Positions 24,637-51,880 of a stretch of 64,000 nucleotides of DNA are shown here, one piece after another. The position numbers were made by a program, and so were the translations under genes. The stretch covers positions 186,001 through 250,000 of the forward strand of contig NZ_PNFB01000001.1 of assembly GCF_003347015.1 (NCBI RefSeq), written 5' to 3'. The number at the start of each line of letters is the position of its first letter. Positions within the stretch are counted from its first letter, which is position 1. Below the pieces are notes generated by a model. The model saw only the letters and a program-made list of their open reading frames with translations, did not search any database and was not told the DNA's origin. This stretch comes from Brachybacterium sp. YJGR34 (GTDB lineage: Bacteria > Actinomycetota > Actinomycetes > Actinomycetales > Dermabacteraceae).

Positions 24637-26199
24637 GTGACGATCGAAGACTTCCTCAGGATGCTCCTGCGCCACCTGCTCCTGCTGGTGGTGGTCACAG
24701 CGGCGGGGGCCGGCGGCGGGTACGGCCTGTCCTACACCCAGCCGGAGGTCTACGCCGCGGACGCCCTGGGCTACGTCTCCTCCACCGGGCAGAGCGACGA
24801 GGACGGCAACCCCATCGCCCAGGCGAACGGCAACATGGAGCTGCAGTACACCAAGGCGCAGAGCTACCTGCCGCTGTTCAGCACCCGCGCGGTCGGGCAG
24901 CGGGTGGTGGACGATCTGGGGCTCGAGGCCGCCCCCGACGACGTGGCCGGATCCCTCCAGGCCTCCCTGGACCCCAACGCCCCGATCATCACCGTCACCG
25001 CGCAGGCGGGGAGTCCGCAGGAGGCCTCGGACATCGCGAACGCGGCCGTGGCCGCCGTCGCGGAGGAGGCCGCCTCGCTCGAGACCGGCGGCACCGAGGG
25101 CGCCACCCCGCCCGTGCAGCTGGTGCCGTACCAGAGCGCGCTGGTGCCCAGCGGTCCGGTCTCCCCGGACCGCATGAAGTACCTCGCCGCCGGCGGCGCG
25201 GCAGGCCTGCTCATCGCGCTCGCGCTGGCCTGGATGCGCGATCGCAACGACTCCCGGATCCGGACGGCGCAGGACGTCGCCGCCGCCGCGGACACCGCGC
25301 TGCTGGGCACCCTGCCGGACCACAAGCAGCTGGTGCGGCGCAAGGACGGCACGCTCCCGGAGCCGCGGGCCTTCGCCCCCCGCGAGGGCTTCCGCACGCT
25401 GCGCACCAACCTGCGCTACGCCGACGTCGACAGCCCGCCGCGCTCGATCGTGGTCACCTCGAGCGCGCCCGGCGAGGGCAAGACCACCGTGGCCTCGAAC
25501 CTCGCGCGGGTCATGGCCCGTGCCGGACAGCCCACGATCCTCATCGACGCGGACCTGCGCCGCCCGATGATCGCCGGCGAGTTCGCCGTCGACGGCGAGG
25601 TGGGCCTCTCCCAGCTGCTCGCCGCGGCGGTGAGCCTCGAGGACGCCCTCCAGCCCACCGACATCCCGCACCTGACGCTGCTGCCCTCGGGCCAGGTGCC
25701 GCCGAACCCCTCGGAGCTGCTGGGCTCGCGGCGGATGCAGGAGCTCGTCGAGGAGCTCTCGCGCACCCACTTCCTGCTCATCGACGCCCCGCCGGTGCTC
25801 GCCGTGACCGACGCCCAGCTGCTGGCCCGCCACGCCGACGGGGCGCTGCTGGTGATCCGCGCCGGCGCCACGCGCCGCCTCGCGCTCTCCCGCGCGGTCG
25901 ACGCGCTGCGCGGCGTGGGCGCGACGCTCTACGGCGCCGTGATGAACGGCGTCTCCGGCAGCCGCTTCACCCGCCTGGCCTACGGCGATGGGGCCTACGG
26001 CTACGGGGCCTACGGCTATGGGGCCTCGACCGAGTACCGGGCGGCGGTGGAGCGGGCGCTGGGCGAGGAGGTCGACGTGGACGACGCCGGCGGCCCCGCC
26101 GAGGTCCACACCGGGCACGAGACGGATCGCCCCGGGAGCGGGCCGTCCCCCGACGGCGGACGCGGACGTCGCGCCGGCCCGTCGCAGGGCGAGGGATGA
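24637..26199 (+). CDS. Polysaccharide co-polymerase / tyrosine autokinase (Wzc/CapAB-like)
   Basis: Controls chain length and export of the surface polysaccharide. Two membrane segments (about 7-30 and 182-202) flank a short Wzz-like extracellular domain. The cytoplasmic BY-kinase domain has Walker A (SSAPGEGKTTVASNLA), Walker A' (ILIDADLRRP) and Walker B (FLLIDAPPVLAV). Downstream, about residues 448-466, lies a Tyr-rich tail (YGDGAYGYGAYGYGASTEY), the usual autophosphorylation cluster, made of a short repeat. The start is GTG. It heads the polysaccharide operon and overlaps the next gene by ATGA. The low-molecular-weight phosphatase at 48733-49266 is a candidate partner. Confidence 0.92.
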   Translation: MTIEDFLRMLLRHLLLLVVVTAAGAGGGYGLSYTQPEVYAADALGYVSSTGQSDEDGNPIAQANGNMELQYTKAQSYLPLFSTRAVGQRVVDDLGLEAAPDDVAGSLQASLDPNAPIITVTAQAGSPQEASDIANAAVAAVAEEAASLETGGTEGATPPVQLVPYQSALVPSGPVSPDRMKYLAAGGAAGLLIALALAWMRDRNDSRIRTAQDVAAAADTALLGTLPDHKQLVRRKDGTLPEPRAFAPREGFRTLRTNLRYADVDSPPRSIVVTSSAPGEGKTTVASNLARVMARAGQPTILIDADLRRPMIAGEFAVDGEVGLSQLLAAAVSLEDALQPTDIPHLTLLPSGQVPPNPSELLGSRRMQELVEELSRTHFLLIDAPPVLAVTDAQLLARHADGALLVIRAGATRRLALSRAVDALRGVGATLYGAVMNGVSGSRFTRLAYGDGAYGYGAYGYGASTEYRAAVERALGEEVDVDDAGGPAEVHTGHETDRPGSGPSPDGGRGRRAGPSQGEG

Positions 26200-29211: not shown

Positions 29212-29924
29212 GCGTGCTCGCCGTGATCCCCGCCCGCGGCGGCTCCAAGGGGATCCCCCGCAAGAACCTGCTGCCCGTCGGCGGCAAGCCGCTGATCGCC
29301 TGGACCATCGCCCAGGCCCTCGCCGCCCGCGGCACGGAGGACGTGCTGGTCACGGTCTCCACCGAGGATCCGGAGATCGCGGCCGTGGCCCGCGAGCACG
29401 GCGCCCGCGTCATCGAGCGCCCCGCCGAGCTCGCCACCGACACCGCCCCCACGGAGCCCACGGTGCTGCACGCGATGGACGTGCTCGAGGCCGAGGGCGC
29501 CCGCCTCGACGCCGTGGTGCTGCTGCAGGCCACCTCCCCGGTGCGTCGTCCCGGGACCATCGCGCGCGCGATCGCGCAGTTCCGGGAGGGCGGGGCGGAC
29601 TCCCTGGTGGGCGTGGTGCCCCTCGCGCCCTTCCTGTGGCGCCTGCCCGCGGCGCCGGGGGAGAGCGCGGCCGCCGACTACGACGTCGCCGCCCGGCCCC
29701 GCCGCCAGGAGCTGCGGCCCGAGCAGCGCCGCTACTTCGAGAACGGCTCCCTGTACGTCACGGCCCCGCACGTCTACCGCGCCCTGGGCAACCGCCTGGG
29801 CGGGAGAACGGACCTCTTCGTGCTCGACGAGGTGGAGGGCGTGGACATCGACACCCTCACCGATGTCTCCCGCGCCGAGTCCATGCTCGCGACGCTCGCG
29901 GCGACCGAGGAGGGCGGCGCATGA
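29208..29924 (+). CDS. neuA: CMP-nonulosonate (sialic-acid-type) cytidylyltransferase
   Basis: Activates a nine-carbon sugar with CTP. At 238 residues it is normal for NeuA/LegF/PseF catalytic domains. The nucleotide-binding signature is VIPARGGSKGIPRKNLLPVGGK (seen in two parts: IPARGGSKGIPRKN and PLIAWTI). STEDPEIAAVAREHGA, LLQATSPVRRPGTIARAI, and DTLTDVSRAESML with its metal-site Asp also fit. It lies immediately before the neuB-like gene with an ATGA overlap, as expected for consecutive steps. The sequence does not show whether the sugar is sialic, legionaminic or another nonulosonic acid. Confidence 0.9.
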   Translation: MSVLAVIPARGGSKGIPRKNLLPVGGKPLIAWTIAQALAARGTEDVLVTVSTEDPEIAAVAREHGARVIERPAELATDTAPTEPTVLHAMDVLEAEGARLDAVVLLQATSPVRRPGTIARAIAQFREGGADSLVGVVPLAPFLWRLPAAPGESAAADYDVAARPRRQELRPEQRRYFENGSLYVTAPHVYRALGNRLGGRTDLFVLDEVEGVDIDTLTDVSRAESMLATLAATEEGGA

Positions 29925-39718: not shown

Positions 39719-41235
39719 CCGAGCCGGAGGCACCGCAGGAGGAGCTCGCGCCGGACGGGCTGGGAGCACGCGGCGGGCGCGGGGCGCTGCTGGGGGTGGC
39801 CGGGAAGCTTGCGAAGCTCGCGGTCAACCTGCTTTCGCTGATCGTCTTCGCGCGACTGCTCACCCCGGCGGACTTCGGCCTGGTCGCCATGATCACCGCG
39901 GTGGTCGGCGCGGCCGAGCTCGTGCGGGACCTGGGACTCTCGACCGCCGCGGTGCGGGCACCGTCCCTGTCCCGTGCCCAGCGGGACAACCTCTGGTGGG
40001 TCAACACGGCTCTCGGCGCCGGAGCCGCCGCCGTGGTCTGCGCCCTGGCGCCCCTGCTCGCATGGTTCTACGGCGATCCCCGGCTGGTGGCGCTGACCCT
40101 CGTGTACTCCACGGTGTTCCTCCTCAGCGGCATGGCGACCCAGTACTCGGCGGACCTCATGCGCTCGATGCGGTTCGGGCGGCTGGCCCTCGCGCAGATC
40201 GTGGCCGCACTCGCCGCCTTCGGCGTCGCGCTGCTCGCCGCGCTCGGCGGCTGGGGGTACTGGGCGCTCGCCCTGCAGCAGGTCCTCGGCGGCGCGCTGA
40301 CCCTGATCCTGCTGGCGGCCGTCGCGGGCTGGCTGCCGCGGCGGTTCCGGCGCGGTGTCCCGCTGCGGGAGTTCTTCCGCTTCGGCCTGCCGCTGTTCGG
40401 GTCCCAGCTGCTGACCTACGCGAGCGGGAACCTCGACCAGGTGCTCGTCGGCCGGTTCTTCGGAGCCGCCGACCTCGGCCACTACAGCCGCGGCATCCAG
40501 CTGGTGAGGATGCCGATGAACCAGGTGCGCGGTCCGCTGTCGAACGCGGCCCTCAGCACGCTGGCGAAGGTCCGGGAGGACCGGGAGAGCTATGCCCGAC
40601 TGCTGGCGAAGGCACAGCTGGGGATGCTGTATCCCCTCGCGATCCTCTCCACCGCCGTCGCGGTCGTGGCCCCTGACCTCGTGCCCTTCCTGCTGGGCCC
40701 CGAGTGGACGGCGGTCGCGGCGTTCGTGACGATCTTCGCGCTCGGCGACATGATCTCCTCGCTCGCGGCCGCGGGCGGATGGCTGTACCTGTCCGAGGGG
40801 AAGAGCGCCGCGCTGCTGCGCTACACCGCGCTCTCGGCGGCCGTGCGGATCGTGATGTTCCTCGTCGCGGTGCCGCTCGGGATCCACGCGGTGGCCGCGG
40901 TGTACGTCCTCGCTCCGCTGCTGCTGTGGCCGTTCTCGCTCTGGTACTGCCAGCGCGCGACGGGGCGGCCCACCCTGCCGCTGCTGCGCGGATCGCTGCG
41001 GGTGTTCGTGGTGACCATGCTCAGCTTCGTCGCCGGGTACGGCGTCCAGCTGGCGATGGACGCGCCGGGACCGGGACGACTCTTCGCCTCGGCGGGAGCG
41101 TACCTGGTGGTCCTCGGCCTGCTCGCGCTGATCCCGGCGATCCGCCGCGATCTGCGGGAGGTGCTCGGCATGGTCCGCACGGTGCTGGGCCGACGCCCGG
41201 CTGCTTCAGGCGCCGGGACCGGCCAGGAGGCCTAG
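39715..41235 (+). CDS. Wzx-like lipid-linked oligosaccharide flippase
   Basis: Moves undecaprenyl-linked repeat units across the membrane. 506 residues with about 12-14 hydrophobic segments. LLSLIVFARLLTPADFGLVA and RFFGAADLGHYSRGIQL are typical of the polysaccharide_synt MVF/MATE superfamily. The GTG start overlaps the preceding stop. The 3' end overlaps a convergent glycosyltransferase by 30 bp. It is the expected partner of the Wzy-like polymerase. Confidence 0.91.
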   Translation: MTEPEAPQEELAPDGLGARGGRGALLGVAGKLAKLAVNLLSLIVFARLLTPADFGLVAMITAVVGAAELVRDLGLSTAAVRAPSLSRAQRDNLWWVNTALGAGAAAVVCALAPLLAWFYGDPRLVALTLVYSTVFLLSGMATQYSADLMRSMRFGRLALAQIVAALAAFGVALLAALGGWGYWALALQQVLGGALTLILLAAVAGWLPRRFRRGVPLREFFRFGLPLFGSQLLTYASGNLDQVLVGRFFGAADLGHYSRGIQLVRMPMNQVRGPLSNAALSTLAKVREDRESYARLLAKAQLGMLYPLAILSTAVAVVAPDLVPFLLGPEWTAVAAFVTIFALGDMISSLAAAGGWLYLSEGKSAALLRYTALSAAVRIVMFLVAVPLGIHAVAAVYVLAPLLLWPFSLWYCQRATGRPTLPLLRGSLRVFVVTMLSFVAGYGVQLAMDAPGPGRLFASAGAYLVVLGLLALIPAIRRDLREVLGMVRTVLGRRPAASGAGTGQEA

Positions 41236-42207
41236 CTCCGCCTCGAGCGCGGGGAACGGGCCGGCCTCCAGCACCTCCGCGATCCCCGCGATCCGATGGC
41301 GCCAGTCCAGCCGCTCGCGCGCCAGGGCGCGGTGACGCGCCGCCGTCGCAGGGCGCCACGCCGCCACGTGCTCCTGCAGCTGCGTCAGTCCCGCCCTCAG
41401 GTCCTCGGGGTCCAGGTCCACCGTCGCCCCGGGCCAGAGGATCTGCGCGGCAGAGGGCGGGGCGACCCCGGCGACGGTGGCGCCCTGGGCGAGGGCGTCG
41501 GTCCAGCGCCCCGTGAGGTACTCGCGCGTGGGATGGGTGTACGGGGCGGGGGAGACCCGGTTGGTGAAGGCGAGGGCGAACTTGGAGCGCCCCAGGGCGC
41601 GGCGCACGGCGGCCTGGTTCTGCGCCGGATCCCGTGCCAGGGGCGGTCGCCCCTCGACGACCAGGCCGAGCTCCGCGGCCGCGGCACGGGTGTCGGCGTC
41701 GTCGGCCCAGGCCGCGGGCTGGCGGCCGATCCGCACCAGATCCGTGGGTCGCTCGGCCGTCGGAGCGGTCGCGGCGAGGGTGTCGGCGCCCCACGGCGCC
41801 CAGTGCACCGGCGCGCCGGTGAGCGCGGACCATTCCTCGATCAGCTCGGGGTCGGTGATGAAGACGTGGTCGAAGTGCCCGCGGTGCGCCGCCATCCCCG
41901 AGAGGCGATCGGTCCAGAAGGAGTCGATCACCCAGGCCGCGGTGCGGTGATAGCCGGGCATCCAGTGCGCGCGCCGCGCGGCGTAGGCGAGATGCGCCGG
42001 GCTGGGGGCCAGCACCAGGAGGGCGCGCCGCCGTGCCCGTCGCCGCGGCGCGCGGCCGGCGAGCTTGCGCGGCAGCGACACCTCGCCGCGGTCGTCGACG
42101 GTGAGCAGCCGAGCTCCCAGCAGGCGGGCGCAGAGCGTGGCGAGCTCGTCGATCGGGCCCCATCCGAGGCCTGCGGCGCGCACGTGGAGGAGATCGACAG
42201 CGGTCAC
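41206..42207 (-). CDS. Glycosyltransferase-like protein (family unclear)
   Basis: A 333-residue soluble protein. VIDSFWTDRLSG, HVFITDPELIEEW and LAFTNRVSPAPYTHPTREYL resemble CgeB-like or GT1-like proteins in polysaccharide clusters. The region about residues 205-265 ends in a donor-site-like WPGATVDLDPEDL. I cannot name the family with certainty. The GTG start is fixed by TAGTCT 6 bases upstream. Divergent from the second pyruvyltransferase; convergent, with overlap, with the flippase. Confidence 0.6.
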   Translation of the reverse strand: MTAVDLLHVRAAGLGWGPIDELATLCARLLGARLLTVDDRGEVSLPRKLAGRAPRRRARRRALLVLAPSPAHLAYAARRAHWMPGYHRTAAWVIDSFWTDRLSGMAAHRGHFDHVFITDPELIEEWSALTGAPVHWAPWGADTLAATAPTAERPTDLVRIGRQPAAWADDADTRAAAAELGLVVEGRPPLARDPAQNQAAVRRALGRSKFALAFTNRVSPAPYTHPTREYLTGRWTDALAQGATVAGVAPPSAAQILWPGATVDLDPEDLRAGLTQLQEHVAAWRPATAARHRALARERLDWRHRIAGIAEVLEAGPFPALEAELGLLAGPGA

Positions 42208-42213
42208 CGGTCC

Positions 42214-42219
42214 AGACTA
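42214..42219 (-). promoter_or_regulatory. -10 box of leaderless promoter for the 41206-42207 gene
   Basis: TAGTCT on the minus strand, exactly 6 bases before the GTG at 42207. Confidence 0.55.
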
Positions 42220-42245
42220 GGCGCCGAGGGAGCCCCGGGGATCCC

Positions 42246-42251
42246 TAGGAT
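42246..42251 (+). promoter_or_regulatory. -10 box (TAGGAT) of the second pyruvyltransferase
   Basis: TAGGAT overlaps an in-frame ATG at 42250. This argues that translation starts at the GTG at 42298 instead. Confidence 0.45.
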
Positions 42252-42297
42252 GAGGGCCGGCCCGCGCGGAGGCCGGGACAGCGGACGGGGGAGCGCG

Positions 42298-43140
42298 GTG
42301 CTGCAGTCGGTGGACGTCGCCGGGGTCGAGGTCCTGCACTGGAACCCTCGCACGCCCCTCCCGCTGCGGCCGCGCCGCGCCTTCCGCTGGACGCGGCACC
42401 TGCCGCTGGCGCCGCGCGTCGACAACGTCGGCGACCTGCTGGGGCCGGAGGTCGTCCGGCAGCAGGTCCGCGCGCGCGGCCTGCGCGCCGCTGACGGCTC
42501 GTCCGTCGCACCCCTGGGCGCCGTCGGCTCCGTGCTGCACATGCTCCCGCCCGGTGCGGTGGTGTGGGGAGCCGGGGTGAACGGCAAGCACCGGGACCTC
42601 GAGCTGCCGGCGGACCTCGACCTGCGTGCCGTGCGCGGGCCGCTGACCGGTCGGTATCTCACGGAGAACGGCCGCACCGATCCGGGCGTCTACGGCGATC
42701 CCGCCCTGCTCCTCGACCTCGGCCCCCTGCGAGGGCGCGGCGCGCCGGGACCGGCCGCGCCGGGGGAGCGCAGCGGCGTCCTGTGGATCGACAACCTCAA
42801 CGAGAGGCGTCCCGGGGTGCCGCCTCCCGGCGTCCGGAGCCGATCCCCGAGGGAGCGCATCGCAACGCTGATCGAGGCCATCGACCGCAGCGAGCTGGTG
42901 ATCGGCTCGAGCCTCCACGCCCTCGTCCTCGCCGAGGTCCTCGGCGTGCCGGCGCGCGGGATCCTCTCGGAGGCGGAGCCGCCCCTGAAATACCTCGACT
43001 ACTACGAGGGGTCCGGACGTGCCGGGGTGCGACTCGCGCACGACGTCGAGGAGGCGCTCTCGCTGGGCGGCGTCCCACGCGGCCCGACGATCGATCCTGC
43101 GCTGCGGGAGAGCTTCCCGGCGGATCTGTGGCGTCGGTGA
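42298..43140 (+). CDS. Polysaccharide pyruvyltransferase, short form
   Basis: A 280-residue member of the pyruvyltransferase family. NVGDLLGPEVVRQQV at the N-terminus, VVWGAGVNGKHRDLELP, RGPLTGRYL and VIGSSLHALVLAEVLGVPA are the family's conserved blocks; the last is the PEP-site motif. The GTG start has GGGGGAG 5 bases before it. The TAGGAT promoter element covers the only upstream ATG. It probably decorates a different sugar of the polymer from the 38621-39718 enzyme. Confidence 0.88.
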   Translation: MLQSVDVAGVEVLHWNPRTPLPLRPRRAFRWTRHLPLAPRVDNVGDLLGPEVVRQQVRARGLRAADGSSVAPLGAVGSVLHMLPPGAVVWGAGVNGKHRDLELPADLDLRAVRGPLTGRYLTENGRTDPGVYGDPALLLDLGPLRGRGAPGPAAPGERSGVLWIDNLNERRPGVPPPGVRSRSPRERIATLIEAIDRSELVIGSSLHALVLAEVLGVPARGILSEAEPPLKYLDYYEGSGRAGVRLAHDVEEALSLGGVPRGPTIDPALRESFPADLWRR

Positions 43141-43141
43141 G

Positions 43142-43155
43142 GCCGTCGCGACGGC
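43142..43155. promoter_or_regulatory. Perfect palindrome before the WbaP-type gene
   Basis: GCCGTCGCGACGGC, a perfect 14-bp palindrome directly after a stop codon and about 20 bp before the -10 box TACGGT. A possible operator, but such sequences also arise by chance in GC-rich DNA. Confidence 0.35.
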
Positions 43156-43174
43156 GGAGCTCGGCGACGGACGC

Positions 43175-43180
43175 TACGGT
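43175..43180 (+). promoter_or_regulatory. -10 box (TACGGT) of the WbaP-type gene
   Basis: TACGGT, 80 bases before the ATG. The predicted leader ends with GAGGAGCAG immediately before the start. Confidence 0.45.
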
Positions 43181-43260
43181 GTGATCAGCACCCGCTGCGC
43201 CGAGGCCGGGCGCGGGAACTCCCGCCGCGCGCGACGCGCGGGTCGACCATCGAGGAGCAG

Positions 43261-44769
43261 ATGTCGCTGTCAGAGGAAGCGAGGCAGGCCCGCCGGGACG
43301 CGGCCGGGCACGGGACCGCCGTGCCCCGGGACCTGCCCGCGGGCGGCATCGGCATCAGGAGACTGCGGCATCTCGGCGTCGCGGCGATGGTGGCCGGGGA
43401 CATGCTCGCGGTCGGGCTGGCCATGCTCGGCGCCTACCTCTTCCGACAGTCGGTCCTGAGCGCCGCCGGTGACCTCAGCGGCTACGTCCTGGACGCCGCC
43501 TGGATCATCGCGATCGGGTGGATCCTCGCGATCTACCTGTGGGGCGGATACAACCCGCGCCTGCTGCCTGCCGGCACCGAGCTCTACAGCAACCTGCTGC
43601 ACGCCTCCGTCGCGGCGGCGGGCATCGTGGGCACCGTCGTGTACCTCGTGGACATCGAGCTCTCCCGTGCCTTCTTCCTCGCCTTCTTCCTGCTGGGGCC
43701 CCCACTGCTGCTGGGGGTCCGCCTGCTGCTGCGGCGGTCCCTCGGCGCCGCCCGGCTGCGCGGGCATCTGCGCGAGGGCGTGATCGCGATCGGGTCCCTC
43801 GCCTCCGTGGAGGGCATCGCCCGGACCCTGCACCGCGAGCGCTGGCTGGGCTACGACGTCATCGGCGCGGTGACCCCACCGGGCAGCGGGGCCACGGAGA
43901 CCGCGGACGGGATCCCCGTGCTGGGCACCGAGGAGGAGCTGCTGCGGATCGCGGCGGAGGTGCGGCCGGCGGTGCTGCTGTTCACCGCCGGCGCCTCCGC
44001 CAGCGCGGAGGAGTTCCGCCGCACCGCCTGGAAGCTCGAGCAGGAGGACGTCCACGTGATCGTGGTGCCCGCGCTCACCGAGATCTCCGCGGATCGGGTG
44101 GAGATGCGTCCCGTCGCCGGGCTGCCGCTGGTCCACATGGACCTGCCCCGCTCCCGCGGGGCGCTGCGCTGGACGAAGCGGGCCTTCGATCTCGTCGCCT
44201 CGGCGCTCGCCCTGGTCCTGCTCGCCCCGGTGCTCGCCGCCATCGCCCTGCGCATCCGGCTCCACGACGGCGGCCCCGTGATCTTCCGTCAGCAGCGGAT
44301 CGGCCGTGACGAGCGCCCCTTCGAGTTCCTGAAGTTCCGCTCCATGGTGACCGACGCGGAGGCGGAGTCCGTGGAGCTGGTCGAGCGGGCCGTCCAGGAC
44401 CGCGGCAACGACGTCATGTTCAAGATGCGCGACGACCCGCGCATCACCCGCCCCGGACGGTTCCTGCGCCGCTACTCCCTCGACGAGCTGCCGCAGCTGT
44501 GGAACGTGCTGCGCGGCGACATGAGCCTGGTGGGACCGCGCCCCGCCCTGCCCCGTGAGGCGGCGCGGTACGACGAGGACGCCCGGCGCCGGCTCAGCGT
44601 GCGCCCCGGCATCACGGGCCTGTGGCAGGTCTCCGGGCGCAGCGACCTGGCCTGGGAGGACACCGTCCGCCTGGATCTCTACTACGTCGACAACTGGTCC
44701 TTCCTCCGGGACCTCCAGATCCTGCTGCGTACCGTCCGCGCCGTCCTGGCCGCCTCCGGGGCGTACTGA
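43261..44769 (+). CDS. Undecaprenyl-phosphate sugar phosphotransferase (WbaP/CpsE-like)
   Basis: Starts repeat-unit synthesis by placing a sugar-1-phosphate on undecaprenyl phosphate. 502 residues. Four N-terminal membrane segments lie at about 38-165, a CoA-binding-like Rossmann domain at about 170-285, and the catalytic domain from about 295. Catalytic hallmarks: WTKRAFDLVASALALVLLAP, FEFLKFRSM, RYSLDELPQLWNVLRGDMS, LVGPRPALP and PGITGLWQVSGRSDL. The donor (galactose, glucose or an N-acetyl sugar) cannot be told. It is the only priming enzyme of this family in the window. Confidence 0.95.
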   Translation: MSLSEEARQARRDAAGHGTAVPRDLPAGGIGIRRLRHLGVAAMVAGDMLAVGLAMLGAYLFRQSVLSAAGDLSGYVLDAAWIIAIGWILAIYLWGGYNPRLLPAGTELYSNLLHASVAAAGIVGTVVYLVDIELSRAFFLAFFLLGPPLLLGVRLLLRRSLGAARLRGHLREGVIAIGSLASVEGIARTLHRERWLGYDVIGAVTPPGSGATETADGIPVLGTEEELLRIAAEVRPAVLLFTAGASASAEEFRRTAWKLEQEDVHVIVVPALTEISADRVEMRPVAGLPLVHMDLPRSRGALRWTKRAFDLVASALALVLLAPVLAAIALRIRLHDGGPVIFRQQRIGRDERPFEFLKFRSMVTDAEAESVELVERAVQDRGNDVMFKMRDDPRITRPGRFLRRYSLDELPQLWNVLRGDMSLVGPRPALPREAARYDEDARRRLSVRPGITGLWQVSGRSDLAWEDTVRLDLYYVDNWSFLRDLQILLRTVRAVLAASGAY

Positions 44770-44771
44770 GG

Positions 44772-45302
44772 ATGGCGCCTCGACCCTCGGAGCGCGCCGA
44801 GCGCCTGCCGTGGCCGCTGACCGTGCTCGCCGCCGTGGTGCTGGTGGGGATGCCGATCGCGGCCGGTGCCCTGCTGCTGACGGCCGACGGCTGGTCCGTC
44901 AACCGTGCCAACGTGCTGGTCTGGAACGCGGTCGCGGGAACGCTCGGCCTGCGCGGCGCGATCACGCCGGAGCAGTTCGCGGTGGTCGCGAACGTGCTGC
45001 TGTTCGTCCCCTTCTTCGCCGCCCTCGCCCTGCTGGTGCCCCGCTGGTGGTGGGTGGTGCTGGGGGCGGCGCTGTCCGCGGCGGTGGAGCTCCACCAGGG
45101 CACCCTGGGCTCGCGGGAGGCGTCCCTCGGCGACGTCGCCGCGAACACCGCGGGGGCCGCGATCGGGGTGGCGCTGGGCCTCGGGGTGCGGCGGCGCGCG
45201 CTCAGGGCCGCAGCAGCCGGCCCCAGCGCGCGAACCACTCCCGGCGGAGCTCTCGACGGGTCGGCGTCCGGCCCAGGCGGAGGCTCAGATGATCGCGATT
45301 GA
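44772..45302 (+). CDS. VanZ-like membrane protein
   Basis: A 176-residue small membrane protein with four hydrophobic segments. NVLLFVPFFAALALLVP and SLGDVAANTAGAAIG are the conserved VanZ-family blocks. The function of most VanZ homologues is unknown; some affect teicoplanin susceptibility. It starts 2 bp after the priming transferase, so it is co-transcribed. The soluble C-terminal tail (about 140-176) overlaps 101 bp of the convergent nucleotidyltransferase gene. Confidence 0.85.
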   Translation: MAPRPSERAERLPWPLTVLAAVVLVGMPIAAGALLLTADGWSVNRANVLVWNAVAGTLGLRGAITPEQFAVVANVLLFVPFFAALALLVPRWWWVVLGAALSAAVELHQGTLGSREASLGDVAANTAGAAIGVALGLGVRRRALRAAAAGPSARTTPGGALDGSASGPGGGSDDRD

Positions 45303-46035
45303 CCGCCGCGGCCTCCGCGAGGATCCGCACCCGCGCCCGCGGCGAGCGGGCGTCGCGCCAGCGGGCTCGCCACACCTGCCGCGGCGGGGCACCGGCGTGC
45401 AGCGCGCGCCACAGATGCTCGTCCGGACCGCCGCGGGCGCGCTCGGGCCGGCCCGCGACGAGCGCCAGCGGCACCGTCCCTCCGAGCTCGCCGGCGAGGT
45501 CCTCCAGCCGCGCCCGCTCGGCGGCGTCGGCCCGGGTCCAGGACTCGCGGACGTCGTGCGCCGCGCGCGCCGAGCGATCCCGGGCGGCGTGGACCAGGAG
45601 CAGCAGGCGCTGGCCCAGCAGGTCCGGCACCGGGCAGGGGACGCCGCCCAGCACCCGCTCCTCCCGCGCCCGCCACAGCCGCGCGAAGGTGGTCTCCGGC
45701 GAGCGGTCCACGCCCGGGAACGCGCGGTGGACGTCGGCCGTCCCCCAGCGGGGGTGGTGGAAGGCCGCCGCGTGACCGAACACGCTGCCGCGATCGAAGG
45801 TGGTGATCTGCTCCCAGCCGTGCGCAGCCAGCACCTCCCGCAGCTCCTCCACCTGGTCGGGGGCCACCAGCAGGTCGCAGTCGCTCGAGCCGCCGCGCCC
45901 CGCGGCGAGCCGCGGGTCCAGGGCGACGCCCTTGAGATGCAGGATCCGCAGCCCGGCACCCTCGGCCAGGAGCTGCAGGCACCCGTGGGCCATCCGCAGT
46001 CGGACCGCGGTCGGCACCTGCACGGGGGAGTCCAT
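45202..46035 (-). CDS. Nucleotidyltransferase-family protein (NTP_transf_5-like)
   Basis: A 277-residue protein of the uncharacterised nucleotidyltransferase family. LRILHLKGVALDPRLAAGRG, SSDCDLLVAPDQVEELREVL (GS-x-D-x-D-like metal site SSDCD) and WGTADVHRAFPG are the recognisable blocks. Such proteins recur with PqqD-like and HPr-kinase-like genes, as here. The reaction is unknown. The start at 46035 is chosen over an upstream ATG because TAGACT lies 7 bases before it. Convergent overlap with the VanZ-like gene. Confidence 0.75.
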   Translation of the reverse strand: MDSPVQVPTAVRLRMAHGCLQLLAEGAGLRILHLKGVALDPRLAAGRGGSSDCDLLVAPDQVEELREVLAAHGWEQITTFDRGSVFGHAAAFHHPRWGTADVHRAFPGVDRSPETTFARLWRAREERVLGGVPCPVPDLLGQRLLLLVHAARDRSARAAHDVRESWTRADAAERARLEDLAGELGGTVPLALVAGRPERARGGPDEHLWRALHAGAPPRQVWRARWRDARSPRARVRILAEAAAVNRDHLSLRLGRTPTRRELRREWFARWGRLLRP

Positions 46036-46042
46036 AGGGTGG

Positions 46043-46048
46043 AGTCTA
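46043..46048 (-). promoter_or_regulatory. -10 box of leaderless promoter for the nucleotidyltransferase
   Basis: TAGACT on the minus strand, 7 bases before the ATG at 46035. Confidence 0.5.
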
Positions 46049-46093
46049 GGAGAGCGCCCCTGGTCGGGGCCCGACGGCGAGGAAGGATGCGGC

Positions 46094-47293
46094 ATGTGGC
46101 AGCTCGATAGCCGGATCCACCACTACGGCTGGGGGTCCGAGACCGCCCTGCCGGCGTTCCTGGGCCGCGAGGCCGACGGCCGTCCCTGGGCCGAGGCCTG
46201 GTACGGCGCGCACCCGCTGGCCCCCTCCACGCTGGAGACCGGGCAGGGTCTCGACGCGGCGATCGCCGCGGATCCCCGGGCCCTGCTGGGCGACGCGGTG
46301 GCGCGCACCTTCGAGGGCCGCCTGCCGTACCTGCTGAAGGTCATCGCCCCGCAGCGGCCGCTCTCCCTGCAGGTGCACCCCACCCGGGAGCACGCCCGCG
46401 AGTCCTTCGCGGCGGAGGACGCCGCCGGCCTCGCGCTGGACTCGCCGCTGCGCAACTACCGCGACGACAACCACAAGCCGGAGATGCTCATCGCGCTGAC
46501 GCGGTTCACCGCGCTGTGCGGCTTCCGCACGCCCCGGCGCGCGGCCGGGCTGCTCGAGGGGCTGGGCACGGATCTCACCGACCGCCTCCACCACCTGCTG
46601 GTCCACAACCCCACCGCGCACGGCATGCGCGCCGCCTTCCGCACCCTGGTCTCCTCCTCGATGCGGCCCTCCGCCGGCGCGGTCGCCGAGGTGGTCGCCG
46701 CCTGCCGGGCCCGCGGGGACTCCGGCGCCTCCCCGTCCCCGCGCATCGACCACATCGTCACCCTGCTCGCCGACCATCACCCCGCGGATCCGGGCGTGGT
46801 GGCCGCGCTGCTGCTGAACCCCGTCACCCTGCAGCCGGGGGAGGCGATGTTCGTCCCCGCGGGGGCGCTGCACGCCTACCTCCACGGGGTGGGGCTGGAG
46901 GTCATGGCCTCGAGCGACAACGTGCTGCGCGCCGGGCTGACGGACAAGCGCATCGACGCCGAGGAGATGCTCCAGTGCGTCAGCGTCGCGGCAGCCCCGC
47001 CGCTGCGGGTGGCGCCCGAGCACCAGAGCACCGCCACCGTCGCCTACTACGCCCCGGTGGACGACTTCGAGCTGTCGATCACCACTCTCGAGGACCGTCC
47101 CGGCATCCCGCCGCGTCACCGCCTGCGCGGCGGCGGACCGCGCACCCTGCTGGGCCTGTCCGGCGAGGTCCGGGTCGAGAGCGAGAGGAGCCGGCACCTG
47201 CTTCCCGCCGGGAGGGCGCTCTTCGTCCCGGCGTCCGACGGGCAGCTCCGCGCCGGCGGGACCGGGCGCTTCGCCCAGGCGAGCGTCCCGTGA
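46094..47293 (+). CDS. manA: Mannose-6-phosphate isomerase, class I
   Basis: Interconverts fructose-6-phosphate and mannose-6-phosphate, feeding GDP-mannose for glycosylation. 399 residues, type I PMI cupin. Zinc-site and catalytic blocks: SLQVHPTREHA, NYRDDNHKPEMLIALT, FVPAGALHAYLHGVGLEVMASSDNVLRAGLTDK. Length and motifs are complete. GGAAGGA lies before the ATG. Its stop overlaps the PqqD-like GTG, coupling mannose metabolism to the downstream pair, which is unusual. Confidence 0.94.
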   Translation: MWQLDSRIHHYGWGSETALPAFLGREADGRPWAEAWYGAHPLAPSTLETGQGLDAAIAADPRALLGDAVARTFEGRLPYLLKVIAPQRPLSLQVHPTREHARESFAAEDAAGLALDSPLRNYRDDNHKPEMLIALTRFTALCGFRTPRRAAGLLEGLGTDLTDRLHHLLVHNPTAHGMRAAFRTLVSSSMRPSAGAVAEVVAACRARGDSGASPSPRIDHIVTLLADHHPADPGVVAALLLNPVTLQPGEAMFVPAGALHAYLHGVGLEVMASSDNVLRAGLTDKRIDAEEMLQCVSVAAAPPLRVAPEHQSTATVAYYAPVDDFELSITTLEDRPGIPPRHRLRGGGPRTLLGLSGEVRVESERSRHLLPAGRALFVPASDGQLRAGGTGRFAQASVP

Positions 47294-47652
47294 CGCGCCT
47301 CCGCCTCGCCCGCATCGTCCGCGAGGTCGACGGGGACGACCTCTGGATCGGCGCGGTGCCCCACGGGCCGATCCTGCACGTGGAGGGCGCCGGCGCGATG
47401 GTGCTCGCCGTGCTCGAGGGAAGGGATCCGCTGACCGTGACGGACCCCGCCGTCGGGGCGCTCCGGGAGGCACCCCTGCCCGCTCCCGGGGACCGTCCCG
47501 TCCTGACCGCCGCGCAGATCGTGGACGCGCTGGCGGCCGACATCCCCGACCTGCCCGAGGAGGCGGACGCGTCGATCCGGGACTTCCTCGCCCAGCTCCG
47601 CGCCGCCGGGATCCTCGAGGTGCTCGTCGAGGCCGACGGCGGCCGCGCATGA
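47290..47652 (+). CDS. PqqD-like winged-helix protein
   Basis: A 120-residue protein. The pattern RIVREVDGDDLWIG, HVEGAGAMVLAVLEG, VLTAAQIVDALAADIP and IRDFLAQLRAAGIL follows the PqqD fold, known as the peptide-recognition element in several peptide-maturation systems. No radical-SAM enzyme, precursor peptide or lasso cyclase is adjacent. It is read with manA and an HPr-kinase-like gene through 4-bp overlaps and starts with GTG. In polysaccharide settings these PqqD-like proteins have no known role. Confidence 0.72.
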   Translation: MTRLRLARIVREVDGDDLWIGAVPHGPILHVEGAGAMVLAVLEGRDPLTVTDPAVGALREAPLPAPGDRPVLTAAQIVDALAADIPDLPEEADASIRDFLAQLRAAGILEVLVEADGGRA

Positions 47653-48755
47653 GCGGCGGCCACCGGCCCCGTCCCCTGGTGCTCGAGCTCCCCGGGGTGG
47701 GCCTCGAGCTGAGCTTCGGGCCCGGCCACGAGGCGCTCGCCGCGGAGGCCGCCGCCCTCTGGGCGCATCGCGCGGATCCCGCGGCGACGGTCACCGCCCG
47801 CCGCGCGGTGCGCGTCCCGGGGGACACGCCGGACCCGGGCGCGCTGGTGATCCCACCCGGCCCGTCGGCCGCCTACCAGCTGTCCGGGCGGATCACCCGC
47901 GTGGTCATCGAGGCGCTGATCGGCACGCGGGTGCTGCTGCACGCCGGGGCGGTCGACCACGAGGAGCTCGGTCCGGTGCTGCTGGTGGGGCCCAGCGGGG
48001 CCGGGAAGTCCACGGCGGTCGCGGTGCTCGGCCACGGGGGTGGCTACCTCTCCGACGAGCTCGCGATCATCGACCCGACCTCCCGGGCCGTCACCGGATT
48101 CCCCAAGCCCGTCTCCCGCATCGGGCCGGACGGCGTGAAGCGGGACGCGGCGCCGGCCGCGCTCGGCCTCCGCCCCACGGTCTCCGCGGACGCCCCGGAG
48201 CGGATCGTGCTGCTGGACCGCGGGCCGACGGCGACCGGGACCGTCCGGCGGCTGCCGCTGGGGGAGGCGATGCCGCGCCTCATCGAGCAGACCTCCTCGC
48301 TGTGCCGGGTCCCCGGAGGCCTGGCCGCCCTCGCCGCGCTCGTCACCCGCAGCGGCGGCGCGCTGCAGGTGGGCTACCGCGAGGCCGAGGAGCTCCCCGC
48401 TCTGCTGGCCGACCCGCCCGCCGCGCACGACGAGGACTGGGAGGAGCTCCCCGCGGGGCCGGCGCGCCCGGCGGCGGAGCCGGCGGGGGCCCTCACGGCC
48501 GCCCCGTACGACCAGGCGCTCGTGCTGGAGAACGGGGTGCTGGTCCTCGCCAGCACCCGCGCCGGCCACCTGCCCGGACTGGCCGGGCTGGTGTGGGAGC
48601 GACTGCGGGACGCCGGCGGGCTGGATCCGGACCAGCTCGAGAGCGTTGTCGCCGCCGAGCTCGGCGCGCACCCGCAGAGTCGCACGCTGCTGGCCAGCAC
48701 CGTGGACGCGCTGGTGCGCGGGGGATGGGTGGTCAGCGCTCCCCGGTCGCCGTGA
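47649..48755 (+). CDS. HPr-kinase-like P-loop protein with C-terminal PqqD-like region
   Basis: A 368-residue protein. The central HPr-kinase-like fold (about 75-210) has VLLHAGAVDHEELGPVLLVG then Walker A GPSGAGKS at 114-121, a YLSDELAIID acidic segment, and FPKPVSRIGPDGVKR. It lacks the full HprK family signature, so it is a relative, not HprK itself. Residues about 283-360 (DQALVLENGVLVLASTRA, VWERLRDAGGLD, VDALVRGGWVV) again resemble a PqqD-like winged helix. Substrate unknown. Overlaps the convergent phosphatase gene by 23 bp. Confidence 0.72.
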   Translation: MSGGHRPRPLVLELPGVGLELSFGPGHEALAAEAAALWAHRADPAATVTARRAVRVPGDTPDPGALVIPPGPSAAYQLSGRITRVVIEALIGTRVLLHAGAVDHEELGPVLLVGPSGAGKSTAVAVLGHGGGYLSDELAIIDPTSRAVTGFPKPVSRIGPDGVKRDAAPAALGLRPTVSADAPERIVLLDRGPTATGTVRRLPLGEAMPRLIEQTSSLCRVPGGLAALAALVTRSGGALQVGYREAEELPALLADPPAAHDEDWEELPAGPARPAAEPAGALTAAPYDQALVLENGVLVLASTRAGHLPGLAGLVWERLRDAGGLDPDQLESVVAAELGAHPQSRTLLASTVDALVRGGWVVSAPRSP

Positions 48756-49266
48756 GCAGCACCGCGAGCTGGTCCACGAGGCTCTCGATCCGCCGCGCCG
48801 TGGCCGCGGCGACCTCCGGCGGCCGGCGGTAGGGGTCCGGCACGTCCCGCCCCGGCGGCAGGGCCTGCCGCGTCCACCGGTCGACGGCGCCGGAGTCCAG
48901 CCCCGGACCCTGCCGGGCCGCGATCGCCGCCAGCTCGGGGACGTGACCCAGCAGCCCCAGCCGGCGGACCACGGAGGGATCCTCCTCGCGGAGATGGCTG
49001 CGCTGGCGCTCGGACATCACCAGGACGAGATCCGCCGCGAGGTCCTCGCCCCTCACCTGCCGCGCCCGGAAGCCCGCCGGGTCCGCACCGCGCCGCCGGG
49101 CCTCCTCGGCCATCCGGTGCTCCATGGGATCTCCCCCCAGCGCGTCGATGCCGGCGCTGGCCACGGTGATCCCCGGGACGCGGGTGCGCAGCAGCAGCTC
49201 GGCGAAGGGGGAGCGGCACACATTGCCCGTGCACACCAGCAGCACCGAGGAGACGGGCCGCGTCAT
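48733..49266 (-). CDS. Low-molecular-weight protein-tyrosine phosphatase
   Basis: A 177-residue cysteine phosphatase. The P-loop CTGNVCRSP has nucleophile Cys12 and Arg18; a DPYRRP segment supplies the general-acid Asp region near the C-terminus. It is slightly longer than typical 150-residue members. The ATG overlaps the stop of the MauE-thioredoxin gene, so the two are made together. A likely substrate is the tyrosine autokinase at 24637-26199, as in Wzb/Wzc or CpsB pairs; this is inference. Confidence 0.9.
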   Translation of the reverse strand: MTRPVSSVLLVCTGNVCRSPFAELLLRTRVPGITVASAGIDALGGDPMEHRMAEEARRRGADPAGFRARQVRGEDLAADLVLVMSERQRSHLREEDPSVVRRLGLLGHVPELAAIAARQGPGLDSGAVDRWTRQALPPGRDVPDPYRRPPEVAAATARRIESLVDQLAVLLTATGER

Positions 49267-50312
49267 GGCGCCTCCGGCAGCTCGCCCTCGGCGCGGGCGA
49301 TCCGCAGCTGCTCCTGGATCTCCTCGACGAATCCGATCACGGCATCGCCGCCGGTGACCGGCCCGCCCGCGAGCAGCCCGTCGGCCCCCAGCAGCACCGC
49401 CGAGGGTGCGCCCCGGCCGCCGAGCGCGGAGCGGGCCACGAACTGCAGGTCGTGCAGGGCGCTGTCGCCCACCCGGGCGATGGTGCGCTCGCGCAGCTGA
49501 TCCAGCGGGCGGGAGAAGACCGGTATGACCTGCAGGGAGGGGGAGAGCGTCTCGAGCCAGCCGGGGATCTCGTCGAGCACCCGCTCGCACGGTCCGCAGC
49601 CCTCGGTGACGAAGATCAGCAGCGCCGCCTGCTGGGCGGTCAGCTGGTTCAGCGTGATCAGGCGGCCGCCCGGCCGCTGCAGCACCGCCCCCGGGATCGG
49701 GTCCCGCTCGTAGTCCAGCAGCTCCTCGTCCTCGGCGGAGTCGGCCTCGGAGGGGAGGCCGGGGACGCCCTCCCCGTCGGCGGGATTCGGGGTCGCCGTC
49801 GAGGCACCGCCGAGCGTGAGCACCGTCAGCACGATCGTCAGCCCCAGCGCGATCCCGAGCCCCACCAGGGCCAGCGGGGTCAGCTCGAGCGTCCTGGCCA
49901 GCAGCCCGGCGCTCGCGGCGGGCACCGTCAGCAGGGCGAGCAGGGCGAGCACGAGGTTGCGGGCCAGGGTGCGGCGGGAGACCGTCGGCGAGGCGAGGGA
50001 GCCGAAGCAGGAGCATTCCACCGGCTCCTCGAAGGTCAGGGCGCGGGCGATGATCACCAGGTACACGATCATCAGGGCCGCGATCAGAGCGGACACCGCG
50101 ACCTGCAGGGGCACCACGGGCACCCACAGCACCAGGGCCAGGACGATCTCGAGCACGGGCAGAGCGTTCGCGACGGCGCGATGCAGACCGCGGCCGGGCA
50201 GGCGCAGCGAGGTCATCGCGTCCACCGTTCCCCGGCGCGCACCGAGCTTCGCGAGCCCGGAGACCAGCAGCGTCAGCGACAGCAGGATCGGGGCGGTCAG
50301 CAGCACCATCAT
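49263..50312 (-). CDS. MauE-like membrane protein fused to a thioredoxin-like domain
   Basis: A 349-residue protein. Residues 1-170 hold five hydrophobic segments of the MauE/DoxX redox-associated family, with a CxC pair (Cys100, Cys102 in VECSCFGS). Residues about 205-345 form a thioredoxin-like domain with CGPC at 239-242 (FVTEGCGPCERVLDEIPGW). The layout resembles a disulfide electron-transfer unit passing thiols across the membrane. It is the second gene of a leaderless operon after a 25-residue reading frame, and overlaps the phosphatase gene by 4 bp. The redox partner is unknown. Confidence 0.85.
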   Translation of the reverse strand: MMVLLTAPILLSLTLLVSGLAKLGARRGTVDAMTSLRLPGRGLHRAVANALPVLEIVLALVLWVPVVPLQVAVSALIAALMIVYLVIIARALTFEEPVECSCFGSLASPTVSRRTLARNLVLALLALLTVPAASAGLLARTLELTPLALVGLGIALGLTIVLTVLTLGGASTATPNPADGEGVPGLPSEADSAEDEELLDYERDPIPGAVLQRPGGRLITLNQLTAQQAALLIFVTEGCGPCERVLDEIPGWLETLSPSLQVIPVFSRPLDQLRERTIARVGDSALHDLQFVARSALGGRGAPSAVLLGADGLLAGGPVTGGDAVIGFVEEIQEQLRIARAEGELPEAP

Positions 50313-50386
50313 CGCGCGGCGGCCTCCGGGCCGGCGCCGGCCCTCGCGCGCGGGGCCGTCCGGTCGGGGAGATGCGCTGTGTCCAT
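50309..50386 (-). CDS. Small leaderless reading frame (25 residues) coupled to the MauE-thioredoxin gene
   Basis: Begins MDTAHLPDRTAPRA, is rich in Ala, Arg and Pro, and ends with a TGA that overlaps the MauE ATG in an ATGA. TACTCT lies 6 bases before its ATG, so it would be the first thing translated on a leaderless mRNA. Too short for homology. It could be a leader peptide that delivers ribosomes to the next start, since that gene has no Shine-Dalgarno that I can see. A peptide substrate for the nearby PqqD-like proteins is only a speculation. Confidence 0.5.
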   Translation of the reverse strand: MDTAHLPDRTAPRARAGAGPEAAAR

Positions 50387-50392
50387 GCCCCG

Positions 50393-50398
50393 AGAGTA
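50393..50398 (-). promoter_or_regulatory. -10 box of leaderless promoter for the MauE-thioredoxin operon
   Basis: TACTCT on the minus strand, exactly 6 bases before the ATG of the 25-residue frame. Confidence 0.5.
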
Positions 50399-50455
50399 GT
50401 CACCGCGACGAGATGGTGGGCGACAGCGGCCGCGACGGGGACCGGGCGCGGGACC

Positions 50456-50461
50456 TACGCT
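50456..50461 (+). promoter_or_regulatory. -10 box of leaderless promoter for the aldehyde dehydrogenase
   Basis: TACGCT, exactly 6 bases before the ATG at 50468. Confidence 0.55.
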
Positions 50462-50467
50462 GGGCGC

Positions 50468-51880
50468 ATGCCGACCCCTCCCGCCGACGACGCGCTGCGC
50501 GCGCACCTCCAGGCCGACGTCTCCGCACTCCGCGACTCCTTCGACGCCGGCACCACCCGCGGCCTCGACGCGCGCCGCGCCCAGCTCGAGGCGCTCCGGC
50601 GCGGCCTGCGGCACGAGGAGCCGGCCCTGGTCCGCGCCCTCGCCGAGGACCTCGGCAAATCCCGCACCGAGAGCCTGCTGACCGAGATCGGCGTGGCGCG
50701 CCAGGAGATCACCGAGGCCCTGAAGCACCTGCGGTCCTGGCTGCGCCCGCAGCCGCTGCGCCTGGGTCCCCTGCTCGCCCCGTCCACCGGTCGCCTGCAC
50801 CGCGAGCCCCTGGGCACCACGCTGATCATCGCGCCCTGGAACTACCCGGTGAACCTCACCCTCGCCCCGCTCGTCGCCGCGATCGCCGGCGGCAACACCG
50901 CGGTGCTGAAGCCCAGCGAGGTGGCGCCGGCGACCTCCGCGGCGCTCGCCCACCTGGTGCGCACCCACCTCGACCCCGCCTGGGTGCGGGTGGTCGAGGG
51001 CGGCGTGGAGGAGACCACGATCCTCCTCGAGCAGCGCTTCGACCTGATCTTCTACACCGGCAGCGCCCGGGTGGGGCGGATCGTGGCGCGCGCCGCCGCC
51101 GAGCACCTCACGCCGACGATCCTCGAGCTGGGCGGGAAGTCCCCCGTGTTCGTCGACGACGGGGTGGACCTCGCCGCGGCCGCTCGCCGGATCGTCTGGG
51201 GGAAGTTCACCAACGCCGGGCAGACCTGCATCGCGCCGGACTACCTCATGGCCACCCCGGAGACGGCGAGGGCGCTGGTCCCGCACCTGCTGCGCGCCGT
51301 GCGCTCGCTGTACGGCCGGTCCCCGCGGCGCGCGGCCGACTACGGGCGGATGGTGTCCCGGCGGCACCTCGAGCGGGTGCTCGCCCTGATCGACGACGAG
51401 CGGTGCGTGCTGGGCGGCACCGCCGAGGCCGATCCCGACGCGCGGTACCTCCCGCCGACGATCATGACCGACGTGGACTGGGATGATCCGGTGATGGCCG
51501 AGGAGATCTTCGGCCCCGTGCTGCCGATCCTCACCGTCGACGGCCCCGACGAGGCGATCGCCCGGATCCGCGCGGGGGATCAGCCCCTGACTCTGTACCT
51601 GTTCTCGCGGGACGCCGACCTCGAGGAGCGCTTCGCCGCGGAGACCTCCTCCGGGTCCCTCGCGCTGGGCCTGACCCTCGCGCACATCGGGACCCCGGGG
51701 ATGCCCTTCGGCGGAGTGGGGGAGTCCGGGACGGGCGCCTATCACGGCCGCGCGGGCCTCGAGGCCTTCACCCATGCCAAGCCCGTGGTGCGCAAGCCGC
51801 TGCGGCCGGACACGCTGCGCCTGGTCTACCCGCCGTACACCCGTCCCCGCAGCGCCCTGCTGCGGCGCCTGCTGCGCTGA
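50468..51880 (+). CDS. NAD(P)-dependent aldehyde dehydrogenase (class 3-like)
   Basis: Oxidises an aldehyde to the acid. 470 residues. NAD-site IAPWNYPVNLTLAPLVAAIA, catalytic Glu in LELGGKSP (about 220), catalytic Cys in NAGQTCIAPDY (about 255), and EEIFGPVLPI near the C-terminus. The length, lacking about 30 N-terminal residues versus betaine-aldehyde types, and the sequence SFDAGTTRGLDARRAQLEAL match the class 3/fatty aldehyde group such as YwdH or coniferyl aldehyde dehydrogenase. Soluble; substrate unknown. Confidence 0.93.
   Translation: MPTPPADDALRAHLQADVSALRDSFDAGTTRGLDARRAQLEALRRGLRHEEPALVRALAEDLGKSRTESLLTEIGVARQEITEALKHLRSWLRPQPLRLGPLLAPSTGRLHREPLGTTLIIAPWNYPVNLTLAPLVAAIAGGNTAVLKPSEVAPATSAALAHLVRTHLDPAWVRVVEGGVEETTILLEQRFDLIFYTGSARVGRIVARAAAEHLTPTILELGGKSPVFVDDGVDLAAAARRIVWGKFTNAGQTCIAPDYLMATPETARALVPHLLRAVRSLYGRSPRRAADYGRMVSRRHLERVLALIDDERCVLGGTAEADPDARYLPPTIMTDVDWDDPVMAEEIFGPVLPILTVDGPDEAIARIRAGDQPLTLYLFSRDADLEERFAAETSSGSLALGLTLAHIGTPGMPFGGVGESGTGAYHGRAGLEAFTHAKPVVRKPLRPDTLRLVYPPYTRPRSALLRRLLR

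Follow-up and report, generated by a model that had tools for sequence, protein, structure and literature searches.

The Locus and Its Genes

Within a 64,000-nucleotide stretch of the 4.0-Mb genome of Brachybacterium sp. YJGR34 (G000:C11:186001-250000; herein referred to as the window), we examined a cassette encoding a kinase-like protein of the HPr kinase (HprK) type, a stand-alone PqqD-like protein and a nucleotidyltransferase (NTase), a trio whose distribution among genomes closely follows that of one N-terminal secretion signal. Gene models at 43261-51880, built from open reading frames (ORFs) and codon-position G+C, give the order exopolysaccharide (EPS) polyprenyl glycosylphosphotransferase (GPT), VanZ, NTase, manA, PqqD-like protein, HprK-like protein, low-molecular-weight protein-tyrosine phosphatase (LMW-PTP), MauE-thioredoxin protein and aldehyde dehydrogenase, with the NTase, LMW-PTP and MauE-thioredoxin genes on the reverse strand and the remainder on the forward strand.

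The NTase, of the NTP_transf_5 family (PF14907, 43.1 bits against a gathering score of 31.2), is encoded at 45202..46035 (reverse strand, alternative start 46095), divergently from manA, from which the shorter gene model is separated by 58 bp. The PqqD-like protein (47290..47652, forward; PF05402, 26.5 bits against a gathering score of 23.4) is of the type of the recognition elements (RRE) of ribosomally synthesized and post-translationally modified peptides (RiPPs) and is predicted to bind peptides, and the kinase (47649..48755, forward; TIGR04352, E = 1.7e-9) has an HprK/PEPCK fold with a PqqD-like domain at its C-terminus. Between the NTase and PqqD-like genes lies manA (46094..47293, forward), a class I mannose-6-phosphate isomerase (TIGR00218, 221 bits, cut-off 116) that is the first gene of an apparent operon and probably serves in sugar supply. 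The flanks hold GPT (43261..44769, forward; TIGR03025, 423 bits) and a VanZ-like membrane protein (44772..45302, forward; PF04892, 54.8 bits) on one side, and on the other a Wzb-type LMW-PTP (48733..49266, reverse; PF01451, 66.7 bits) and a protein with a MauE membrane domain and a thioredoxin-like CGPC domain (49263..50312, reverse; PF07291, 75.8 bits). A first-pass annotation had placed five unusual families around manA, namely the trio, the phosphatase and the membrane redox protein, and Pfam and NCBIfam profile scans recover all five there.

The genes are tightly packed, with 4-bp overlaps at manA/pqqD (the GTG start of the PqqD-like gene falls within this overlap), pqqD/hprK and ptp/mauE. 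A small precursor ORF inside the module was considered and is ruled out by space, the junction gaps being at most 59 bp. The nine proteins scanned, encoded at 41206-50312, include neither a lasso cyclase nor a leader peptidase.

Sequence and Predicted Fold of the Core Proteins

The kinase scores below the cut-offs of both TIGR04352 (37.2 bits, cut-off 200) and the HPr kinase/phosphorylase model TIGR00679 (10.5 bits, cut-off 240); its residues H98, K120 (in the P-loop, GPSGAGKST), D136, E137, K153, K164 and R191 are invariant among 42 relatives. Sequence searches of the PDB with kinase and NTase profiles returned P-loop or chance matches only, and structure prediction was therefore used. The AlphaFold2 (AF2) model of the kinase (predicted local distance difference test, pLDDT, 95.7) matches ATP-dependent phosphoenolpyruvate carboxykinase (PEPCK; Z 15.7, root-mean-square deviation (rmsd) 4.0, 249 aligned) and the HPr kinase/phosphorylase (HprK/P) structure 3tqf (Foldseek E 8.9e-4), and the predicted fold together with the P-loop places the protein in the HprK/PEPCK fold superfamily. 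Residues ~282-364 at the kinase C-terminus form a second PqqD-like domain (hhalign against the PqqD profile: probability 95, E 3.6e-8). Kinases in other genera can be short, with a small ORF of the same type as this C-terminal domain standing separately behind them (one of the two scanned weakly matches PF05402, E 0.0016), and whether fused or separate there are therefore two PqqD-like domains per system.

The stand-alone PqqD-like protein exceeds the superfamily threshold of PF05402 and falls below the cut-offs of TIGR04353 (21.4 bits, cut-off 35) and of TIGR03859, the PqqD of PQQ biosynthesis (13.4 bits, cut-off 46); W19, P24 and G26-P27 are invariant among 12 relatives. The NTase carries a KG...SxDxD...D pattern, with K35-G36, S50, D52, D54, D101, H103 and R104 invariant among 14 relatives, and its AF2 model (pLDDT 88.6) matches MenT1 (Z 14.7, rmsd 3.5, 178 aligned) and ANT(2'')-Ia (Z 12.5), with a weaker match to FKRP (Z 8.2).

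Conservation of the Gene Set in Actinomycetales

A search started from the window kinase alone returned only two related loci, and we therefore used family-wide profile searches; a plasmid search found a close relative on none. Among 47 genomes of Dermabacteraceae, kinase and NTase co-occur perfectly (both in 20, neither in 27), and most of the 20 Dermabacteraceae HprK loci largely follow the order GPT-VanZ-NTase-manA-(PqqD)-HprK-PTP/MauE. PTP and MauE are not always in the same order, and several loci contain inserted genes of other polysaccharide or metabolic functions; clear exceptions are L046 (a second HprK locus of G022) and L039, with no NTase, PTP or MauE nearby. Outside the family, we set 38 HprK loci from other families of the order against 40 control regions drawn from the same genome sets, and NTase (13/38 vs 0/40), PTP (14/38 vs 1/40), Wzz (19/38 vs 0/40), GPT (5/38 vs 0/40) and MauE (6/38 vs 0/40) all lie more often near HprK.

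The grouping is thus not accidental, as the shared distribution of kinase and NTase, the mostly kept gene order and the enrichment of NTase, PTP, Wzz and GPT near HprK attest. The idea that all five families act as one unit does not survive the same comparison. The MauE-thioredoxin protein, whose CxC (C100, C102) and CxxC (C239, C242) are invariant, occurs in 41 of the 47 Dermabacteraceae genomes, and because these include 21 of the 27 kinase-less relatives it is a general neighbor and not a specific part of the module. The LMW-PTP, with its CX5R-type start CTGNVCRS, fits the Wzb type and is probably an associated capsule regulator outside the core. ManA, GPT, Wzz and LMW-PTP belong to the polysaccharide setting of the module.

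A Secretion Signal That Tracks the Kinase

Secreted proteins encoded in HprK loci of Actinomycetales share an N-terminal signal, [ST]RRx[VLI][LVM][KR]GAAW[AST]xP[AV]...AAPAxAxS (in simplified form RRxxxxGAAWxxPxxxxxxAAPAxAxS), in which RR (61/61), W (55/61), P16 (59/61), P25 (59/61) and the Ala of the AxA position (57/61) are strongly conserved. A Ser stands two residues past AxA in 54 of the 61, and the residues after that Ser are not conserved; the mature parts of these client proteins are diverse. With their RR motif, hydrophobic stretch and AxA, the signals mark the clients as putative substrates of twin-arginine translocation (Tat). The conserved sorting signal is N-terminal and hence differs from the C-terminal signal of PEP-CTERM/exosortase systems.

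We followed kinase, NTase and signal at genome scale, using for the signal a profile (A5) trained on sequences from HprK-positive genomes. The signal was detected in 20/20 HprK-positive against 4/27 HprK-negative genomes of Dermabacteraceae (Fisher 1.3e-9) and, among 297 genomes of Actinomycetales, in 53/59 HprK-positive against 4/238 HprK-negative genomes (Fisher 8e-47), values that overstate the evidence given the origin of the training set and the non-independence of related genomes. Counted by genus, 20 have kinase and signal, two the kinase only, none the signal only and 72 neither. This pattern by genus, and the like behavior of genera outside the A5 training set, lessen these concerns without removing them. 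Signal-bearing genes also lie in the HprK loci themselves, in 25/60 by profile against 0/40 control regions (Fisher 2e-7) and in 18/60 against 0/40 by regular expression.

The window's own genome encodes ten signal-bearing proteins by profile search, scattered over the chromosome; a first, too strict DNA pattern for the signal had found zero in that genome. Several other loci have signal genes close at hand. In L101 (G156:C3), seven distinct proteins with a GAAW-type signal are encoded in a cluster within 20 kb around the kinase gene, five of which are also found by the first regular expression. Four Brachybacterium loci (L047, L036, L029 and L027) have a large signal-bearing secreted protein near the kinase gene, and the protein of L027, the only one of the four that was scanned, belongs to the choice-of-anchor G proteins (NF033766, 142 bits). 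In L220 (G143:C8:58500-78400), from a genome without a detected HprK, a signal gene adjoins a stretch that matches the C-terminal region of the kinase and is possibly a decayed kinase.

Proteobacterial Cassettes and Their Clients

In the first distant locus found, L028 from Rhodocyclaceae, the TIGR04352 trio is canonical, and ahead of it lies the gene of a secreted protein whose signal reads RRKLVRGG...SRPVLA. Among 185 sampled genomes of the same class, 19 have TIGR04352 above its cut-off, and in all 19 of these loci a signal-bearing gene encoding a secreted protein of ~200 amino acids lies beside pqqD. PqqD, HprK, NTase and client stand together in 18 of the 19; L157 is the exception, its short contig stopping past the kinase. 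A strict regular expression missed nearly all of these clients, which were found by reading the ORFs upstream of pqqD, and a client profile recovers 17 of the 19 genomes and four weak others.

The proteobacterial signal reads RRxLxKG/A...P[VIL]...T[LV]xSRPxxA/G and is followed directly by an invariant Cys and by Ser residues that the clients share (C57, S60 and S64 in L148), and an S-x3-S-x3-S run also lies past the signal; the clients scanned have no Pfam or NCBIfam family match. Since the actinobacterial profile matches 10 of the 19 proteobacterial client signals (E<1e-3 in the 19-sequence set), the signals look alike across the two phyla. Flanking genes are mostly unrelated housekeeping genes (metK, ahcY, suf and others), with some of polysaccharide type (VanZ, epimerases), and a general EPS link sought in these flanks was not found. 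Among 74 flanking proteins of L142-L161, six have Trypsin-like (Trypsin_2) domains and four are VanZ proteins.

Relationship to Known Systems

The window trio is a diverged relative of the NCBIfam 'HPr-rel-A system' (TIGR04352 HprK_rel_A and TIGR04353 PqqD_rel_X, together with PF14907), the model names of which carry no function. The two share the same three families in one locus, including the PF14907 NTase, and HPr-rel-A models are the best named matches for the window kinase and PqqD-like protein. They differ in that the window proteins fall far under the curated cut-offs, a second PqqD-like domain is fused to the window kinase, the NTase gene runs divergently, and the locus is a polysaccharide cluster in which no client lies beside pqqD and the clients are encoded in trans, the last being a criterion of the present analysis and not a published one. 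The description of the trio as unrecognised therefore holds for its function, which is unassigned, and not for its name.

A precedent with experimentally demonstrated chemistry is the tailoring of lasso peptides by PadeK, ThcoK or PsmK together with PsmN, which likewise combines an HPr-kinase homologue, a nucleotidyltransferase and a PqqD-type (B1) domain. According to two reviews (PMC9266682, PMC8498205), PsmK phosphorylates a Ser of pseudomycoidin, after which PsmN adds one or two hexoses to the phospho-Ser, and lasso-peptide kinases of the HPr-kinase type need a His-Lys-Asp-Asp set; by analogy, D136-E137 of the window kinase may be the counterpart of the Asp-Asp pair. Unlike these clusters, the window module has no lasso cyclase, protease or precursor peptide among its genes, and the proposed substrates are exported, full-length proteins. 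With HprK/P and ATP-dependent PEPCK the kinase shares the predicted fold and a P-loop with a catalytic His and an acidic pair; it differs from HprK/P in its low TIGR00679 score, its C-terminal PqqD-like domain and the absence of an HPr gene among the module genes. The PEP-CTERM/exosortase system (PMC1569441) is similar in that the lead to it was a short sorting signal distributed among genomes as an enzyme set is, and in its EPS link; here the signal is N-terminal and twin-arginine-like, and the enzymes are soluble kinase- and NTase-like proteins instead of membrane transpeptidases.

A Proposed Modification System for Secreted Proteins

Because the gene set tracks one secretion signal so closely, the simplest reading is that it acts on the signal-bearing proteins, and we hypothesize that the kinase, NTase and PqqD-like domains are, on balance, a protein-modification system for secreted proteins with this dedicated twin-arginine-type N-terminal signal. 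Synthesis and folding of Tat-type preproteins take place in the cytoplasm, which could bring them within reach of soluble kinase, NTase and PqqD-like proteins. The PqqD-like domains (one free, one fused to the kinase) would hold the cytoplasmic preprotein via its signal region; the kinase would then phosphorylate a hydroxyl residue, the NTase would add a nucleotidyl or sugar group that caps or extends the phosphate, and the tagged protein would be exported to the cell surface or polysaccharide layer. The idea that a phosphate is placed first and then capped comes from the lasso precedent (PsmK/PsmN). Candidate sites are the near-invariant Ser two residues after AxA in Actinomycetales, which as the best-conserved non-signal position is the first to consider, and the S-x3-S-x3-S run of the proteobacterial clients. 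The parts of this proposal differ in strength: that the signal-bearing clients are the substrates is likely, that the kinase acts before the NTase is close to an even call, and that exactly this Ser is modified is doubtful. More tentatively, the cassette could be a previously unrecognised cross-phylum tagging system, steered by its PqqD-like domains, that attaches a phospho-linked nucleotidyl or sugar group to full-length secreted proteins, marking or linking them for the surface or exopolysaccharide.

Several observations weigh against the proposal, in addition to the inflated Fisher values noted above. Six HprK-positive genomes have no detectable signal protein and four signal-positive genomes have no HprK; a profile search of the window itself gives zero signal matches, which puts the client genes in trans; and in only 13 of the 38 loci outside Dermabacteraceae does the NTase lie within 10 kb of HprK. 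The chemistry is argued by analogy, and the HprK/PEPCK fold also includes enzymes of small molecules. Additionally, both Tat and signal peptidase would have to accept a modified Ser so close to the point of cleavage.

The alternative that carries most weight, though we regard it as unlikely, is that cassette and signal share only a lifestyle, with the trio modifying a sugar, a lipid-linked intermediate or an EPS protein and the signal-bearing proteins being merely common surface proteins of polysaccharide makers. The enrichment of EPS genes beside HprK in Actinomycetales (Wzz, PTP and GPT), the 4-bp overlaps that join manA, pqqD and hprK in the window and the presence of FKRP, a glycan-acting enzyme of NTase fold, among the fold matches are all consistent with it; however, the proteobacterial flanks are mostly unrelated to polysaccharides and a client nevertheless stands beside pqqD in 19/19, PqqD folds bind peptides, and the co-occurrence is with one exact signal and not with surface proteins at large. 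We consider it rather improbable that the trio serves export or targeting without covalent change, the PqqD-like and P-loop proteins using ATP to chaperone or target Tat-type preproteins and the NTase being regulatory. Such a role would fit the fact that the conserved part of the clients is the signal itself, the mature parts of the actinobacterial ones being diverse. Against it stand the invariance of the phosphotransfer positions of the kinase (His, P-loop Lys, Asp, Glu and further basic residues) and of the metal-binding Asp triad of the NTase, and the near-invariance of one Ser directly past the signal when the residues that follow it vary.

Two further readings are very improbable. In a lasso-type or other RiPP cluster the trio would tailor a small precursor peptide, and indeed the same three families are described in paeninodin and pseudomycoidin clusters (PMC9266682, PMC8498205), and the lasso B1 proteins TbiB1 and TfuB1 weakly match the PqqD profile (E 0.11 and 0.14); here the module genes include neither cyclase nor leader peptidase, its gaps leave too little room for a precursor gene, and the invariant proteobacterial partner is a secreted protein of ~200 amino acids. 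A five-family circuit, in which LMW-PTP and the MauE-thioredoxin protein would join a kinase/phosphatase/redox unit, draws on the adjacency of PTP and MauE to HprK in most Dermabacteraceae loci and their enrichment elsewhere, and is countered by the many kinase-less genomes that have MauE-thioredoxin and by the expectation that a Wzb-type PTP accompanies Wzz/BY-kinase. The first-pass annotation, which had suggested that the five families may form a post-translational control or peptide-modifying unit, is supported as to a modification unit, the kinase, NTase and PqqD-like proteins co-occurring and the kinase and NTase keeping their catalytic residues, and not as to a small-peptide substrate; secreted proteins with a dedicated signal as probable substrates were not anticipated by it.

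What is new here is the probable clients of a trio already named in NCBIfam; in the literature searched we found no report of the client link, nor any mention of the NCBIfam model names of the trio. The link between signal and kinase, seen in Actinomycetota as well as Proteobacteria, gives a function-unknown cassette its probable substrates and makes it a testable protein-modification system, as the PEP-CTERM signal did for exosortases.

The Polysaccharide Context

The wider locus of the window encodes a Wzz/BY-kinase-like chain-length protein (24637..26199, forward; PF02706 and AAA_31; Wzz profile E 6e-125), NeuB, glycosyltransferases, a FlaA1-type dehydratase and a DegT aminotransferase, and is therefore a polysaccharide locus. 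The proposed tie of the module to capsule synthesis holds insofar as EPS genes are again found around HprK in other families of actinobacteria, as the Wzz counts indicate; it is nonetheless lineage-specific, and because most proteobacterial cassettes lie outside polysaccharide loci, the core function is probably not capsule synthesis, although tagged proteins may still join the polysaccharide layer. The NeuB-type sialic/nonulosonic acid synthase (29636-31846) has a SAF domain and an AP_endonuc_2 (TIM-barrel) part in the same frame and suggests a polysaccharide that contains nonulosonic acid. Just downstream of the window, L231 (G000:C11:250000-269900) holds a second polysaccharide gene set with GPT, Wzz and LMW-PTP.

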